From: Methanomassiliicoccus luminyensis B10
GTDB lineage: Archaea; Thermoplasmatota; Thermoplasmata; Methanomassiliicoccales; Methanomassiliicoccaceae
NCBI RefSeq assembly: GCF_000308215.1
Contig: NZ_CAJE01000012.1
Coordinates: 372,001 to 436,000, forward strand
Reading direction: 5' to 3'
DNA: 64,000 bases
The notes under the pieces were generated by a model. That model was not told the DNA's origin, searched no databases, and saw only the letters and a list, made by a program, of their open reading frames with translations. Made by a program: the position numbers and the translations under genes. Positions 46,429-61,110 of this stretch are shown here, piece by piece (the stretch's first letter is position 1; each line of letters opens with the position of its first letter).

Positions 46429-47565
46429 ATGTTTCGCACCATCAAGATCCGTTTGGAACGAACCGTTGAACTCATTGAGACGGTTAACGAGTTCAACAAG
46501 GCGTGCCAGTGTGTCTTGGACTGGGGCCGAATGAACAAGCAGTACAACAAGAACAAGTTGCACCACGCGACGTACAAAGGAATACGAGAGGATTTTCCAT
46601 CACTGCCCTCGGGCCTCGTGGTGACCGCTAGGGACCAAGCTAGCGATATGCTCAAGCGGGACAAGTTCAAGCACAAGATCAGGAAGAGGCCGTTCAGTTC
46701 TATCCGTTACGACAAGAGAACGTTGAATGTCTGGCTGGAACATGGATACCTTACCATTAGCACGGTTTTCGGCAGGAAGCGGTACGAGTTCAATCTACCG
46801 GAATACTACCGACAATACCAGTCATGGAAGATAAAGAGCGCCCAGCTTATCGTCGGACGGAACGCTTGTTTCCTCAATACCGTAGTCGAGGGTGAAGCCC
46901 CTCCTCTGAGCGGCGGCGACAGGCGTCTGGGGATAGATCTGGGCATCAACAACATCGCGGTGTGCTCGGACAACACTTTCTACAACTCCAAACACCTAAA
47001 AAACGTCAAAGGCAAGTACAGACATCTCAAGGCTGAACTCCAGTCCAAAGGCACTCGCTCCGCTCGACGGAAGCTTCGTGAGGTAAGCGGGCGAGAAAGA
47101 CGGTTTGTTCGGGACTTGAACCATCGTGTGGCCAAAGAGATAGTGAACAAGCCGTATGATGTTTTCGTCTTCGAGGACCTGACAGGCATACGGGATCGCA
47201 GCAAGTTCAACAGCAAGTTGGGCAGTTGGTCGTTTGGCGAATTGATCCAGTTCGTGCAGTATAAGGCAGAGGCCCTGGGAAAGCAAGTTATGCTCGTCGA
47301 TCCTCGCCACACCTCTCAGACCTGCTCTAAATGTGGTCACGTCTCTCAGAACAATAGAAAAGGAAGGCAGTTCACATGCGTCCAGTGCAGGTTCACGTTG
47401 GACGCGGATCTGAATGCCAGCAGGAACATCGCCGCCTTCTCTACACGGGAGGGCGGCAGGCTCCGTGTCAGCGAGCCAAATGTAGCGAGCGATGAGGCTG
47501 AAGGCCGTATGGCAGTTGAGGCTGAGTTTAGCTGCAAGCCCGTGAGCTTGCTCGTGGGCAGCTGA
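46429..47565 (+). CDS. tnpB: IS200/IS605-type TnpB RNA-guided nuclease, no adjacent TnpA
   Basis: A 378-aa TnpB. The RuvC catalytic residues are intact: Asp in GIDLGINN, Glu in VFEDLTGI, Asp in LDADLNASRN, together with a zinc ribbon CSKCGHVS..FTCVQCRF. TnpB proteins are programmable nucleases guided by an RNA from the element's right end. The ATG at 46429 (MFRTIKIRLERT) is chosen over the TTG 18 bases earlier. No transposase TnpA gene is nearby, so it is a solitary TnpB element. It lies between the divergent Nre promoter and the 3' end of the polyprenyl synthase gene, whose stop is 23 bases past its own. Confidence 0.93.
   Translation: MFRTIKIRLERTVELIETVNEFNKACQCVLDWGRMNKQYNKNKLHHATYKGIREDFPSLPSGLVVTARDQASDMLKRDKFKHKIRKRPFSSIRYDKRTLNVWLEHGYLTISTVFGRKRYEFNLPEYYRQYQSWKIKSAQLIVGRNACFLNTVVEGEAPPLSGGDRRLGIDLGINNIAVCSDNTFYNSKHLKNVKGKYRHLKAELQSKGTRSARRKLREVSGRERRFVRDLNHRVAKEIVNKPYDVFVFEDLTGIRDRSKFNSKLGSWSFGELIQFVQYKAEALGKQVMLVDPRHTSQTCSKCGHVSQNNRKGRQFTCVQCRFTLDADLNASRNIAAFSTREGGRLRVSEPNVASDEAEGRMAVEAEFSCKPVSLLVGS
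47530..47563 (+). ncRNA. candidate omega-RNA stem at TnpB right end
   Basis: The last codons of tnpB form nested stems: AGCTGC (47530-47535) with GCAGCT (47558-47563), and alternatively GCAAGC (47534-47539) with GCTTGC (47546-47551). In known elements the guide-RNA scaffold overlaps the tnpB 3' end and runs to the element edge. The exact right end is not visible; it should lie between about 47565 and 47590. The call rests on position and folding only. Confidence 0.3.
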
Positions 47566-50755: not shown

Positions 50756-51997
50756 ATGCCAGGGCGTATGGGAGGCGGCTCGAAAAGGCGGAACGACCGG
50801 TCGATCATGGAGCTGGCTCTGAGGTCCACTCTCATATTCTCCATAATAGGGTTCTTGGTCAATTTCGGCCTGGGGACCGTTGCCCCCATCCTGCCCCTCT
50901 ATGCCCTGACGTTCAACGTATCCATCGTGATGGTGGGGGCCTTGGTATCGGCCTCGGCCATTTCCAAGGTGATCCTGGATATGCCCTCTGGGATCGTTGC
51001 CGATCGGCTGGGAACAAAGCGGTTCATGCTCGGGGGGCTTTTGATCGTGGCCGCCTCCGCCATGATCTCAGCGTTCGCGGTCGATTACTGGATGCTCCTC
51101 ATCGGGTTGACGGTGCAAGGGATCGGCTCGGCGATCTATTTCACCACATCATATCTTGGCATCAGCAGGACAGCCCCGCCGGCTAAGCGGGGAAGACATT
51201 TGGGCCTGTTCATCAGCCTCCAGTTCCTGGGGACCACCAGCGGGCCGGTCCTGGGCGGCCTTATCGGACAGGCATACGGGCTGAGCGGGCCTTTCCTCAT
51301 CTACGCCGCTTTCACGCTCATCTCGGCCGCGATGGTATATTTCCTGGTGAGCGGGGCGTCCATCAAAGGGGCGGGGGGAGCGAGCGTCGATCTTCATCAG
51401 ATCACCAGGACGTTCAGGAACTATACCCTGACCTCCGTGAACGCGGGCCTTTTCACCACTTCGATCCTCCGCGCCGGCCTGGTCTCCACCATCGTTCCGC
51501 TCTTTGCCGTCAGGAACCTGGGGCTGACCACCGTCGAACTGGGGGCGGCATTGACGCTGTCGGCCGGCTTCAATTTCTTATCCTTGCTGCCGGCCAGTTC
51601 GCTCTCCGACCGCCTGGGGCGGAAACCGTTCCTGTTCTCCAGCCTGCTCTTCGGCGGTATCGTAGCCGCCATGATACCACTGGCCACCGATCTGCTCACC
51701 TTCGCGGTGATCATGTCGGCCCTCGGCTTCGCCTTGGGCCTCTCCGGCTCCGTAGGAGCGTACGTGACGGATGTGGCCCCGCCACCGGACCTGGGAGGGG
51801 CCATGGGGATCTTCAGGACCATGGGGGACCTTGGCTCGTTCATCGGCCCGATAATCCTGACAGCGTTCATACCGGCATCGGCGGGGCCAATAAACGCCTC
51901 CCCCTTCCTGGTGGCCGGAATGATCCTTTCCGTTTCCGGCCTCCTGCTCATCCCGGCGAAGGACCCCGTGCGCTCCAAGGCAGGAGGCCGGAAGTGA
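50756..51997 (+). CDS. major facilitator superfamily transporter
   Basis: A 413-aa transporter with 12 predicted helices in two halves. The family signature between helices 2 and 3 is GIVADRLGTKRFML, repeated in the second half as LSDRLGRKPFLF. It resembles multidrug or small-solute exporters. The start could be 50756, 50768 or 50807; the first gives a basic N-terminus before helix 1. The substrate is unknown. The isoprenoid run on the other strand is divergent with a 158-base gap. Confidence 0.9.
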   Translation: MPGRMGGGSKRRNDRSIMELALRSTLIFSIIGFLVNFGLGTVAPILPLYALTFNVSIVMVGALVSASAISKVILDMPSGIVADRLGTKRFMLGGLLIVAASAMISAFAVDYWMLLIGLTVQGIGSAIYFTTSYLGISRTAPPAKRGRHLGLFISLQFLGTTSGPVLGGLIGQAYGLSGPFLIYAAFTLISAAMVYFLVSGASIKGAGGASVDLHQITRTFRNYTLTSVNAGLFTTSILRAGLVSTIVPLFAVRNLGLTTVELGAALTLSAGFNFLSLLPASSLSDRLGRKPFLFSSLLFGGIVAAMIPLATDLLTFAVIMSALGFALGLSGSVGAYVTDVAPPPDLGGAMGIFRTMGDLGSFIGPIILTAFIPASAGPINASPFLVAGMILSVSGLLLIPAKDPVRSKAGGRK

Positions 51998-52001
51998 GCG
52001 G

Positions 52002-52283
52002 TCAGAACTTGGCCACGCCGGCAATGCAATAATAATTGGACGACAGCGCGTACTTGATGGCCACATTGCACTCGCCGCAAACGCATCCCCGCCGTTCCAG
52101 TCTGCAGCCGCTCTTTCCTCTAGAGCAATACAGCTTCTCCCCCTTCCTGCTCGTGCATTCGTCGTAGGTGGGGCAGCTTTTGCAGTAGCACATCTCAAAG
52201 TTCTCCTCCGTATCCGGGACCCTCTTGCTCCTGATCTCCCTGACGCATCTTGGCGGCCCCATGTTCGTTCCTCTAGCGCTCAT
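52002..52283 (-). CDS. DUF2769 Cys-rich small protein, downstream copy
   Basis: A 93-aa protein with many Cys in the DUF2769 pattern: CYCKSCPTYDEC, KLYCSRGKSGC, GCVCGECNV and YYCIAG. DUF2769 proteins are common in methanogens and probably bind metal or an iron-sulfur cluster; function is unknown. The ATG overlaps the stop of the sugar dehydrogenase gene as ATGA, so it is made together with that enzyme. No signal peptide is visible. Confidence 0.88.
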   Translation of the reverse strand: MSARGTNMGPPRCVREIRSKRVPDTEENFEMCYCKSCPTYDECTSRKGEKLYCSRGKSGCRLERRGCVCGECNVAIKYALSSNYYCIAGVAKF

Positions 52284-53374
52284 TCGGGCCTCACCACGAA
52301 AATGTTGCCCTGGGGCTCGGCGCCATAGACGCTCCCCTCCCCATGCAGGTCCGTGAAGTACATGCCATCCCGGCCGAAGGCCATGCCGACAGGCATCCCG
52401 ATCCCTTCGCCGGTATAGGCAACGAACTCATCGTAGGACCTGATCCCCGAACCATCGCGGTCCAGCTCAAGCTTCACGATCTTCTTGCCTTTCATGGAGG
52501 GAGCGCGATATCGAGCGGGGCCAGCAAGCACCACGAACAGGTGGTCATGGAATTCCTGGGGGAACTGACCATCCTGCATGAACGCGAGAGCGGTGGGGGC
52601 CTGCGTGAAGGTCCACCAGAAGAGCGAGTTCTGCTTCATGTCCATGGGCCACCCGTAGTTCCCTCCGGCCTGGATCCTGGCCACCCGATCGTACGTGCGG
52701 GGGCCGTTGTCAGAGATGTAAAGCGACGAGTCGCTTTTCCGCCAGGTCGCGCCGAAGGGGCTTCGCAGCCCTTTGGCGAACACCGGGCTCTCCGGGTCAG
52801 GGTTGTCGGAGGGGATCGAGCCGTCAAGGTTCATACGGAGGACCTTGCCCCGCAGGTCCTTGTCGTCCTGGGCCACCTCCGACCGCTTCATGCCATCTCC
52901 CACATTGACATACAGCTTCCCGTCAAGGCCGATGGTCACGGCATGGATCTGATGGGCGCCGAGCACCGACGGGATCCCCTCTATCACGGCCGCCATCGAC
53001 TCCATCCTAAGTCCGTCCCTGCTCTTGGTCCGGACCACTTTGGCCTTGAAATCATTGCCGTCCTTGTAGAGCATGGATATGAAGAGGTCACCGCTCTGCG
53101 TCTCTACGCATATCCCCATCACCCCGGACTCACCTGAGCCGGGCAAGATGAAATCGGGACGATAGTTCAGGAGCCCCTCGGCATACGTTATCACTTGGCA
53201 GTCATTGGTCACCACGCGCACCCGCCCATATAGCTCGGTCACGTACAGCAACGGGTCGCCCGGCCTCTTTCCGGGGTTCGGAACGGGAGCGATGTTTACC
53301 GGCTTATCCAGGCCGGTAGCCAAGTGCTCCAGGCGGAACCCCGGGAAGGTCCACCAGCTCTCGATAGGCTTCAT
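52280..53374 (-). CDS. GSDH-family (PQQ-dependent sugar dehydrogenase-like) beta-propeller, copy 1
   Basis: A 364-aa six-bladed propeller of the glucose/sorbosone dehydrogenase family. Blade segments such as GLRSPFGATWRKSDSSLYISDNG, AGGNYGWPMD and GEGIGMPVGMAFGRDGMYFTD, cited in parts, are typical, and the catalytic-type His is probably in LGAHQIHAVTIG. The open frame reaches 53617, but the extra 81 codons are Arg-rich shadow of the next gene; the ATG at 53374 is chosen. No signal peptide is seen, whereas characterised family members are exported. A DUF2769 gene overlaps its end and another precedes it by 55 bases. Confidence 0.88.
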   Translation of the reverse strand: MKPIESWWTFPGFRLEHLATGLDKPVNIAPVPNPGKRPGDPLLYVTELYGRVRVVTNDCQVITYAEGLLNYRPDFILPGSGESGVMGICVETQSGDLFISMLYKDGNDFKAKVVRTKSRDGLRMESMAAVIEGIPSVLGAHQIHAVTIGLDGKLYVNVGDGMKRSEVAQDDKDLRGKVLRMNLDGSIPSDNPDPESPVFAKGLRSPFGATWRKSDSSLYISDNGPRTYDRVARIQAGGNYGWPMDMKQNSLFWWTFTQAPTALAFMQDGQFPQEFHDHLFVVLAGPARYRAPSMKGKKIVKLELDRDGSGIRSYDEFVAYTGEGIGMPVGMAFGRDGMYFTDLHGEGSVYGAEPQGNIFVVRPE

Positions 53375-53429
53375 GGCAGCGGTCCCCGGGCGTCGGCCCG
53401 GCCCAATGTCGAAGGTATGTTCCGGACGA

Positions 53430-53741
53430 TCACTTTCTCGACCCCGAACCGCGCTGCTCGATCTCATCGCCGCGAAGGCAGTAGTACATGTTAACCATGC
53501 CAAGGTCCTTATGCACCGGGCAATCAGGACAGAAGCACACCACTGTATCCTTGATGCACGAGCTCTTCTCGCGCAGACAAAAGACCAGCTCGCCCTTCTC
53601 CTCTGCGCACTGGGCATATGTCGGACAGGGAGGGCAATTGCACCTCTCCTGATTCTCCTTGGCCATCTTCTCTTTCTTTTCCTCGCCCGGACCTCCCGCG
53701 TTTTTCATGATCTCCTCGAACCTGTCCAACAGAGCACCCAT
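53430..53741 (-). CDS. DUF2769 Cys-rich small protein, upstream copy
   Basis: A 103-aa protein with a helical acidic N-terminus and the DUF2769 Cys pattern: CNCPPCPTYAQC, VFCLREKSSC, CFCPDCPV and YYCLRG. The longest frame begins at 53840, but CTACTTAAACCC (about 53763-53774) is a TATA box that would set the start site at the ATG at 53741, giving a leaderless mRNA. It lies 55 bases before sugar dehydrogenase copy 1, so the three genes DUF2769-GSDH-DUF2769 form one operon. Confidence 0.85.
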   Translation of the reverse strand: MGALLDRFEEIMKNAGGPGEEKKEKMAKENQERCNCPPCPTYAQCAEEKGELVFCLREKSSCIKDTVVCFCPDCPVHKDLGMVNMYYCLRGDEIEQRGSGSRK

Positions 53742-53860
53742 CCGATTCAATCCCAGGCCAGGGTTTAAGTAGATTTCTCCGGGCCACCCCTCGGCCCAGA
53801 CCATCTGGTCATGGAACTTATTTATCCGATGGAGGCGCAACGGACAGTGGTGACGAGCGC

Positions 53861-55171
53861 ATGTTCAAGAAGGCGTTTAGCGGGCCCCGACCGCTCCCGG
53901 TCGAAGAGGCGAGGGAAAAGATGTTCCCGGCGGCCGTAGGGATCGAGATCGTATCGGAGGACTTCATCAACCCTGTGGCCCTGGCCGCACCGCCGGACTC
54001 GTCCGGCCGCCTGTTCGTGGTGGACCAGGCCGGAAAGGTGCTCGTGCTGAGATCGGACGGCACCAGGGAGGAAACCCCGTTCTTGGACATTGCCGATGAG
54101 ATCGTGGAGCTGGCCCCGAAATACGATGAACGGGGACTGCTCGGGATGGCCTTTCACCCCCAGTTCAGGACCAACGGAAAGTTCTACCTTTTCTACAGCG
54201 CGCCCCTCCGGGATGGAGCGCCCAAGGGATGGAACTGCACCAACCACCTCGTCGAGTACCGGGCGGCCAAAGACGATCCGAACAGAGCGGACCCCGGCTC
54301 AAGAAGAGTACTGTTGTCACTGGACAAACCCCAGATGAACCACAACGGAGGGCACATCGCCTTTGGACCGGACGGCTATCTGTACGTCCCGTTGGGGGAT
54401 GGAGGGGGAGAGAACGACAAGGACGAGGGGCACACGCCCGGAACGGGCAACGGGCAGGACCTCAACGCTCTGCTCGGCAAGATACTCAGGATCGATGTGG
54501 ACGGCAGGTCGGACGGTAAGGAATATGGCATCCCGCCTGGCAACCCGTTCACTGATGGCCAAGGGCCCCCCGAGATCTTCGCGTACGGCTTGAGGAACCC
54601 GTACCACATCTCCTTCGATGCCGGTGGGGACCGTCAGCTGTTCGCCGGTGACGCCGGACAGGTCCGCTGGGAGGAGATAGACATCATCGTCAGGGGCGGC
54701 AACTATGGGTGGAACCTCAAAGAAGGCTCTCACTGCTTCGATCCGAATGACAATGCCGCCGACCGCCTGGGCTGCTCCTCCACCGGTTTCCGCGGTGAAC
54801 CGCTCATCGATCCCATCATAGAATACCGGAATCTTTCGAACAGGTCCGGCGGCATCGGATCGGTGGTCATCGGCGGGTATGTCTACAGGGGAAGGGCGAT
54901 GTCTTCTCTCAGGGGCCGTTACATCTTTGGAGACCTGAGCGGCACCCACGGAAGGGCCGATGGCCGGATGTTCGTGGGCTCCCCTCCTCCGGACGGGGGT
55001 GCCTGGGTCATGGACGAGATCATCATCGAGGGCAGGGACAGATTGAATGAATATGTCCTGGCGTTCGGCCAGGATATCGACAATGAGCTGTATGTACTCA
55101 CTTCAGATACCCAGGGGCCCAGTGGGAGCTCGGGCAGAGTGTACAAAATCGTGCCGCCCAGGAAGAGCTGA
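53861..55171 (+). CDS. GSDH-family (PQQ-dependent sugar dehydrogenase-like) beta-propeller, copy 2
   Basis: A 436-aa propeller with clearer family hallmarks than copy 1: DERGLLGMAFHPQF, NHNGGHIAFGPDGYLYVPLGDGG (with catalytic-type His), GLRNPYHISFD, GDAGQVRWEEIDII and GGNYGWNLKEG, cited in parts. It resembles hedgehog-interacting-like GSDH proteins. The N-terminus (MFKKAFSGPRPLPVEEA) lacks a hydrophobic signal, so it is probably cytoplasmic, unlike most known relatives. ACTTATTTATCC (53816-53827) is a TATA box. It is divergent from the DUF2769-GSDH operon, sharing the intergenic region. Confidence 0.9.
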   Translation: MFKKAFSGPRPLPVEEAREKMFPAAVGIEIVSEDFINPVALAAPPDSSGRLFVVDQAGKVLVLRSDGTREETPFLDIADEIVELAPKYDERGLLGMAFHPQFRTNGKFYLFYSAPLRDGAPKGWNCTNHLVEYRAAKDDPNRADPGSRRVLLSLDKPQMNHNGGHIAFGPDGYLYVPLGDGGGENDKDEGHTPGTGNGQDLNALLGKILRIDVDGRSDGKEYGIPPGNPFTDGQGPPEIFAYGLRNPYHISFDAGGDRQLFAGDAGQVRWEEIDIIVRGGNYGWNLKEGSHCFDPNDNAADRLGCSSTGFRGEPLIDPIIEYRNLSNRSGGIGSVVIGGYVYRGRAMSSLRGRYIFGDLSGTHGRADGRMFVGSPPPDGGAWVMDEIIIEGRDRLNEYVLAFGQDIDNELYVLTSDTQGPSGSSGRVYKIVPPRKS

Positions 55172-55261: not shown

Positions 55262-55885
55262 GTGGTGTTCTTCGAACCCAGCGTCTTCCTCGTCAAAGAC
55301 CTGATCTCGTCCATGGGATACCCCGGCCTGGCCTTCCTGATGGCGCTGGACGCTACCATCGTCCCGATGCCCAGCGCGGCGGTGATGGGGTTCGCCGGAG
55401 CGCTCTGCTATGAGGGGAGGTACGACATAGCTCTCGTCACGGCGGCAGGAGCGTTCGGCAGCATGCTCGGTTCCGTCTCCATGTACCTTGTTGGCCTGTG
55501 GGGAGGACGACCTTTCGCCGAGCGCTATGGGAAGTACATTGGTCTGGGGGAAGAGAGGATCAGAACGGCCGAAGGCTGGTTCAAGAGACACGGCGATCCG
55601 GTGGTCTTCATTTGCCAGCTCGTTCCGGTAGCGAAAGACCTCATACCATTCCCTGCGGGCCTGGCCAAGATGAGATTGCGGCGCTTCGCGACGTTCTCCT
55701 TCCTGGGCTCCATCCCCTTCTGCTTCATCCTGGCGTATATCGGCCTGTATTTTGGCCAGGATTGGGAGATGGCGGTGGCGGTGGTCGATCGATATGACCT
55801 CCTGGTCCTGGCGCTGTTCGTCGTGCTGACGGCGATTTACCTCGTCCACCGAAAGAGACGGGGCCGGTCCCGGGAGCGAAGCTGA
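55262..55885 (+). CDS. DedA/SNARE-associated-family membrane protein
   Basis: A 207-aa membrane protein of the DedA family, scramblase or flippase-like proteins that maintain lipid and membrane potential balance. Typical parts: LMALDATIVPMPSAAVMGFAGAL, GSMLGSVSMYLVG and the re-entrant loop FICQLVPVAKDLIPFPAGLAKM. In most relatives the conserved residues there are R (FxxRFxPxxR); here they are Gln and Lys, a notable change. The GTG start at 55262 lies 90 bases after the sugar dehydrogenase. Adjacent genes suggest no role. Confidence 0.87.
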   Translation: MVFFEPSVFLVKDLISSMGYPGLAFLMALDATIVPMPSAAVMGFAGALCYEGRYDIALVTAAGAFGSMLGSVSMYLVGLWGGRPFAERYGKYIGLGEERIRTAEGWFKRHGDPVVFICQLVPVAKDLIPFPAGLAKMRLRRFATFSFLGSIPFCFILAYIGLYFGQDWEMAVAVVDRYDLLVLALFVVLTAIYLVHRKRRGRSRERS

Positions 55886-60088: not shown

Positions 60089-61110
60089 ATGCTCCTGACC
60101 TTCAAGTTCAAGCACAACAGGGATTTAAGTGCAGAGTTAGTGAAGGCCAGGCAGGTGGCGGAGTATGCCCTCCGCGTTGGTTACGGGACATCTAAGGACG
60201 TCAAGGACATTGGCCTGCCTTTTGAGATCTCGAACCAAATCCTCAGGAATACTATCGTAACTCCAACCTTAGAGCCATTCACAGCGTCAAGTTGACCCTT
60301 CCAGGCCGAGCGTCGAGGGTGATCTCTGACCGTAAAGAGCTTTACATCTCCTGTCTCAAGCTTCGCCTCGACATCAGCCACCTCCCGATGTTCGAGAAGG
60401 TCAACCAAGTCGAGTTAGACGAAGAGTGTGCGCACATCACCGTTACTATCAATGAAATCCCGGTCCGGGAGGTCGAGAATTGGATTGGCGTGGATCTTAA
60501 CTCGACCGGTCACATCGCCGTTGTAGCTAATCCGGCCACGGGCAAGGTCCAGAAGTACGGCAAGGAAGTGCCGCACATCCACAAGAAGTACTCCAAGATG
60601 CGGAGACACCTCTACAAAGAAGGCCACCCGAAGGTGGCCAAAGAGAAAATAAGGAACAAGGAGAAACGCAAAATTAAGGACATAGACCACAAGGTCACCA
60701 GTGCCATAGTGAAAGAAGCCGTCCGGCAAGAGTGCGGTATAAAATTAGAATGGCTGGACGGAATCAGAGAGACCGCACGCACATCCAGGTCGTCCAGGGC
60801 CTCGCTGCACAGTTGGGAGTTCTATCGGATCCAGCAAGAAATAGAGTATAAGGCCAAGCTGCGCGGGGTACCGGTCGCCTACGTTGACCCTGCTTACACC
60901 AGCCAACAGCGCTCACGCTGTGGCAGGATAGGTAACAGGGACGGCAAGGACTTTACGTGTCCTCATTGTGGGCACGTTGACCACGCCGACGTGAACGCGT
61001 CGTTCAACATCGCGCTGCGTCCTCCTCTGGGAGAAGGTGATGGTCGATTGCATGTATACAGGGATGCATGCAAAGGGCGCATTGATACCCCTCAGGAGGC
61101 TCCGGCATGA
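60089..61110 (+). pseudogene. tnpB: IS200/IS605-type TnpB, frameshifted remnant
   Basis: The N-terminal piece (60089 to 60295, [13 protein letters not shown]...EISNQILR) and the C-terminal piece (from about 60292) belong to one TnpB. Skipping one base near 60250 restores [20 protein letters not shown], which joins the two. RuvC residues remain (GVDLNSTG, LEWLDGIR, DHADVNASFN), but the zinc ribbon has lost its first Cys (QRSRCG where C-x-x-C-G is expected). With a one-base deletion and this change the nuclease is probably dead. No TnpA is nearby. The likely right end is near 61151, in GTGAGTGAGAGTGTCAA. Confidence 0.85.

Follow-up and report, generated by a model that had tools for sequence, protein, structure and literature searches.

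Sugar-dehydrogenase-type propeller GSDH1 and the cysteine-rich DUF2769 protein D2 as probable partners in Methanomassiliicoccus luminyensis and in bacteria

In the 64,000-nucleotide stretch of Methanomassiliicoccus luminyensis B10 DNA analyzed here (the window), the gene of a sugar-dehydrogenase-type propeller protein, GSDH1, is directly followed by that of a small DUF2769 protein, D2. We are confident that the two proteins are partners, very probably forming one unit, because the pair recurs in distant bacteria and is fused in one of them. On balance, we favor a single cytoplasmic enzyme in which D2 would be a metal-bearing subunit that hands on the electrons of GSDH1. GSDH and DUF2769 are known families, and the pair and the fusions appear to be undescribed in the openly accessible literature searched; within the same scope, no mention of DUF2769 or PF10967 was found.

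Gene arrangement of the locus

D1 (53430-53741), GSDH1 (52280-53374) and D2 (52002-52283) form a minus-strand operon, and the second propeller gene, GSDH2 (53861-55171, plus strand), is divergent from it. D1, the first gene of the operon, encodes a 103-residue DUF2769 protein (PF10967, E 1.9e-16), GSDH1 a 364-residue protein of the six-bladed-propeller type (PF07995, E 7.9e-33), D2 a 93-residue DUF2769 protein carrying a CGEC signature (PF10967, E 8.9e-16), and GSDH2 a 436-residue protein (PF07995, E 1.4e-34). The start of D2 lies in the stop of GSDH1, with an overlap of 4 nt (gap -4). The first-pass annotation had described both this overlap and the DUF2769-GSDH-DUF2769 operon with its divergent GSDH gene, and the open reading frames and Pfam assignments agree with it. 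We placed the GSDH1 start at the ATG at 53374, since the alignment of 13 GSDH1 sequences starts at this codon or just a few residues before it; a start at 53617 was rejected, as it merely reflects a long open frame across D1. This locus accounts for both GSDH genes of the genome, which has five DUF2769 genes in all.

The divergent promoter region (53742-53860) contains TATA-like boxes and, between the two promoters, the element GGCCTGGGATTG (53748-53759, minus strand), which is conserved in relatives as judged from nine aligned intergenic regions. As a regulon signal this element was rejected; its three genome matches, compared with one in the reversed control, were near chance. A VTT (DedA-type) membrane protein (55262-55885, plus strand, PF09335) and an MFS transporter (50756-51997, plus strand, PF07690, convergent with D2) flank the four genes. 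We regard GSDH2, VTT and MFS as linked neighbors with no assigned part in the GSDH1-D2 unit. Two OrfB/TnpB-like transposase-type reading frames were also noticed by eye in the list of open reading frames, at 46429-47565 and 60388-61110 of the window.

The GSDH1-D2 pair in archaea

Seven archaeal relatives contain a GSDH1 that is 62-66% identical to that of the window, and D2 lies directly after GSDH1 in all eight cases, mostly with an overlap or a spacing of at most 20 nt. The surrounding block recurs as well: VTT and GSDH2 point away from (D1), GSDH1 and D2, followed by the convergent MFS gene. In particular, VTT is downstream of and co-oriented with GSDH2 at L058, L060 and L063, and the MFS neighbor is kept at L055, L056, L058, L059 and L062.

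The outer members of the locus are less constant. Besides the window, D1 orthologues occur only in G006, G008 and G014; in G008, D1 adjoins GSDH2, and GSDH1 was not found there. Most GSDH2 paralogues have no adjacent DUF2769 gene, and no GSDH2 was seen beside the bacterial pairs described below. The initial proposal of a module with two propellers and two DUF2769 proteins therefore has to be narrowed: GSDH2 and D1 are not core members, and outside the archaeal family GSDH2 does not keep its place next to the operon.

Among 390 sampled genomes of the phylum, 63 contain GSDH and 17 contain DUF2769, and no GSDH-DUF2769 neighborhood was seen among them outside the archaeal family of the window. 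It follows that the GSDH partner is the D2 subtype and not the DUF2769 family as a whole. The check whether DUF2769 genes are randomly placed in relatives had a mixed outcome: the family as such has varied neighbors, and D2 is tied to GSDH1.

The pair and its fusion in bacteria

A contig search with the GSDH1 alignment revealed an Actinobacteria metagenome-assembled genome (MAG) in which a GSDH1 with 57% identity has a DUF2769 gene 37 nt downstream. DUF2769 was found in 30 of the 397 genomes of the same phylum, Actinomycetota, and in the six of these 30 with the strongest DUF2769 matches, GSDH1 (52-62% identical) lies directly upstream in every case. Five of the six bacterial pairs were found via DUF2769, and only the remaining one from GSDH1 without reference to DUF2769, so the six give no measure of bacterial GSDH1 lacking D2. 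One GSDH1 gene, that of G720 (L131, 1744-2500), is split across two frames, reflecting an assembly error or a broken gene. A GSDH1 from Chloroflexota (L082) was excluded from the count, being interrupted by a masked stretch in a genome without DUF2769.

In the assembly G924, the order is a DUF2769 gene, a GSDH1-DUF2769 fusion and another DUF2769 gene. The fusion, known from this one assembly, is a single 439-codon frame with no stop between its two parts; GSDH matches residues 28-249 (E 5.5e-34) and DUF2769 residues 380-434 (E 3.6e-15). The pairwise distances of GSDH1 and D2 are correlated (r 0.95, Mantel p 2e-4), as would be expected for jointly inherited genes. With eight of eight archaeal GSDH1 genes, six bacterial genomes and a natural fusion, the pairing of GSDH1 and D2 is non-random.

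Fold, location and cofactor of the propellers

GSDH1 and GSDH2 score 114.6 and 120.3 bits against the GSDH profile (cut-off 25), which covers only the N-terminal two thirds of the propellers. The AF2 model of GSDH1 (pLDDT 74.5, pTM 0.82, low confidence at residues 243-295) shows the six-bladed beta-propeller typical of aldose dehydrogenases, and its best Foldseek match is 3a9g (E 1.1e-21, TM 0.75/0.80). Full-length GSDH1 relatives are 56-66% identical. The PQQ aldose sugar dehydrogenases from Pyrobaculum (3a9g/3a9h) and E. coli (YliI, 2g8s) share with GSDH1 the propeller fold, the GSDH profile, the catalytic His and the PQQ-side Arg. In contrast to them, GSDH1 has no signal peptide and no C-terminal PQQ arginines, always has a small Cys-rich neighbor beside it, and comes from genomes in which PQQ synthesis genes were not found. 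In a separate observation, GSDH2 is nearer to the propeller of the animal hedgehog-interacting protein (3ho3, top PDB sequence match, E 6e-43) than to any PQQ enzyme in the PDB; unlike that protein, GSDH2 is short, prokaryotic and without a signal peptide, and the match is confined to the propeller part.

The first reading that neither propeller has a signal peptide was confirmed by the maximum 15-residue Kyte-Doolittle mean, by which no hydrophobic N-terminus was found in GSDH1, GSDH2 or their orthologues. The window values were 0.75 for GSDH1 and 1.19 for GSDH2, and nine GSDH1 and eight GSDH2 proteins ranged from 0.75 to 1.41, well short of the 2.10 of E. coli YliI, the sole control in this comparison.

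In soluble glucose dehydrogenase (sGDH), the catalytic residues are His144, Arg228 and Asn229 (PMC6881810), and the C-terminal Arg408 binds the PQQ carboxylates (PMC6881789). GSDH1 His141 and Arg204, which match sGDH His144 and Arg228, are invariant in 13 GSDH1 proteins, and Asn205 is nearly invariant among them, being Ser in the window protein. His161, Arg245 and Asn246 of GSDH2 are invariant in eight GSDH2 proteins. The catalytic His and Arg/Asn by which a PQQ-dependent sugar dehydrogenase is recognized are therefore found in both propellers, apart from the Ser for Asn in the window GSDH1. The C-terminal region is different: in sequence alignment only, the YliI motif RIRDV (RxR) aligns with the non-basic GIGMPVG/ASCCG in 13 of 13 GSDH1 proteins and faces NEYV in GSDH2, where RxR is missing. 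We are moderately sure from these alignments that the C-terminal PQQ-binding Arg is absent from both propellers. PqqE gave no hit above the cut-off in any of 10 genomes, and PqqC was not found in any of 11; the PqqC search had no positive control, and scavenging of PQQ is possible. PQQ, which the first-pass annotation had raised as a cofactor, is thus unlikely to be used by GSDH1, because the C-terminal arginines are not kept and neither PqqE nor PqqC was found, even though the catalytic His and Arg are present.

D2 and the DUF2769 family

D1 and D2 score 60.8 and 58.7 bits against the DUF2769 profile (PF10967), far above the cut-off of 22.8 for this family of unknown function. D2 has 10 Cys residues in conserved columns, and most of 68 DUF2769 members have Cys at 10 columns, the first three of which were preselected in this set. 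The CGEC signature is present in all nine GSDH1-linked D2 proteins and in none of the other 59 members. In the tree of DUF2769 proteins (59 columns), D1 forms a separate clade; the tree left the bacterial D2 proteins unplaced, and the CGEC signature was used in its stead. The structure model of D2 was unreliable (pLDDT 43.5) and gave no usable fold. A profile search of the PDB found no solved relative of DUF2769, and a scan of IMG/VR found no relatives. None of 17 DUF2769 proteins matched rubredoxin in Pfam; their motif is CxCxxC and not two CxxC knuckles.

DUF2769 genes beside other enzymes

Most DUF2769 genes have no GSDH neighbor, and a range of oxidoreductase genes was found beside them. 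Short-chain dehydrogenase genes directly adjoin and are co-oriented with DUF2769 at L069, L070 and L024, as are FAD_binding_2 dehydrogenase genes at L120, L141 and L145, and gluconate dehydrogenase subunit 3 and GMC genes at L154 and L155. The gene orders seen include short-chain dehydrogenase followed by DUF2769, and DUF2769 followed by FAD dehydrogenase. Rieske genes adjoin DUF2769 in the same orientation at L137 and L148, and at L120 the Rieske gene is upstream of the FAD gene (Rieske, FAD dehydrogenase, DUF2769). Additionally, DUF2769 adjoins a rubredoxin-TPP enzyme, in the order DUF2769-rubredoxin-TPP enzyme (L102, L103), and an E1 dehydrogenase (L133), and at L135 it lies about 200 nt from an iron alcohol dehydrogenase. 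A fusion of DUF2769 with a glutamate-synthase FMN domain occurs in G1098 (L151, 226-1698), and G133 has the same type of protein with rubredoxin in the place of DUF2769.

Many DUF2769 genes lie beside non-redox genes, namely topoisomerase VI-like, NfeD-like and transporter genes, and one match falls within a 1503-residue frame (L174, 4256-8767) not recognizable as a redox enzyme. Because of such counter-examples, we treat the apparent link of DUF2769 to redox enzymes as a strong lead and not as a proven enrichment. The putative redox or metal role first suggested for the Cys-rich proteins gains support from the redox-gene neighbors and the glutamate-synthase fusion.

Several further arrangements were observed. 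At L069 (5146-6793), DUF2769 flanks the short-chain dehydrogenase on both sides, a sandwich like D1-GSDH1-D2. At L161 (5916-8474), DUF2769, gluconate 2-dehydrogenase subunit 3 and GMC dehydrogenase are consecutive, and DUF2769 might occupy the spot where a cytochrome c gene could be expected. A tandem DUF2769 pair (L096, 7546-8175; relatives L008-L019) adjoins an AIR-synthase-related gene; in many relatives it is divergent from lipoyl-synthase-like radical SAM genes, and in the window genome from an SdhA/FrdA-like flavoprotein.

Discussion

In the enzyme that we favor, GSDH1 would be the propeller subunit with the catalytic His and Arg of its family, acting on a sugar-like substrate, and D2 would be a ten-cysteine, metal-binding domain docked on it. 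D2 would most likely relay the electrons of GSDH1 to a cytoplasmic carrier, a role modeled on the rubredoxin, Rieske or cytochrome subunits of other dehydrogenases. Gluconate 2-dehydrogenase (GMC subunit, subunit 3 and cytochrome c) and the rubredoxin- and Rieske-linked enzymes have the same layout of a catalytic subunit with a small metal-binding carrier, sometimes fused; in contrast to rubredoxin, Rieske and cytochrome c, the putative carrier here is DUF2769, which has no similarity to them by Pfam.

The chief rival is a structural role for zinc, in which DUF2769 would be a zinc-binding structural or assembly subunit or a chaperone serving folding, stability or metal delivery, with GSDH1 and D2 still in a complex. 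Ten cysteines in CxCxxC groups would suit zinc-thiolate sites, some DUF2769 neighbors are non-redox genes, and a fusion requires contact only and not electron transfer; a structural or regulatory role would leave a genomic picture much alike. We nevertheless consider it rather unlikely, given the repeated placement of DUF2769 with rubredoxin, Rieske, flavin and GMC dehydrogenase genes and its exchange with rubredoxin on the glutamate-synthase domain. Less likely again is that GSDH1, instead of being a dehydrogenase, is a hydrolase, a lactonase or a binding protein with a propeller fold, and D2 its accessory domain. Its sequence and fold are far nearer to the aldose dehydrogenases, and DUF2769 elsewhere accompanies oxidoreductases, which weigh more than the lost PQQ arginines, the paraoxonase and strictosidine synthase among the weaker Foldseek matches, and the metallo-beta-lactamase-fold gene just upstream of the pair at two bacterial loci.

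It seems improbable that GSDH1 is a PQQ sugar dehydrogenase of the classical kind that uses scavenged PQQ in the cytoplasm and gives its electrons to D2. The closest folds and the invariant His141 and Arg204 would fit this reading, whereas the replacement of RxR, the missing PqqE and PqqC hits and the lack of an export signal are evidence against it. Finally, accidental local synteny within a single archaeal family could be imagined from the many DUF2769 genes without a GSDH neighbor; we reject it as scarcely credible, since the pair also occurs in bacterial genomes and as a fusion, and the D2-specific CGEC signature opposes it too.

Beyond the GSDH1-D2 enzyme, DUF2769 may generally be a plug-in module of several unrelated oxidoreductases. 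We tentatively suggest, as an idea that could well prove too broad, that it is a hitherto unrecognized modular redox-metal domain serving as a separate or fused electron carrier for at least six unrelated oxidoreductase families of archaea and bacteria, in place of rubredoxin, Rieske or cytochrome c, with GSDH1-D2 as a new cytoplasmic, PQQ-independent complex. The natural GSDH1-DUF2769 fusion offers a single polypeptide for a direct test of cofactor, metal and activity. If the proposal is true, it would provide the first function for DUF2769, a domain present in methanogens and bacteria, and would reveal a sugar-dehydrogenase-like enzyme that is active inside the cell without PQQ.
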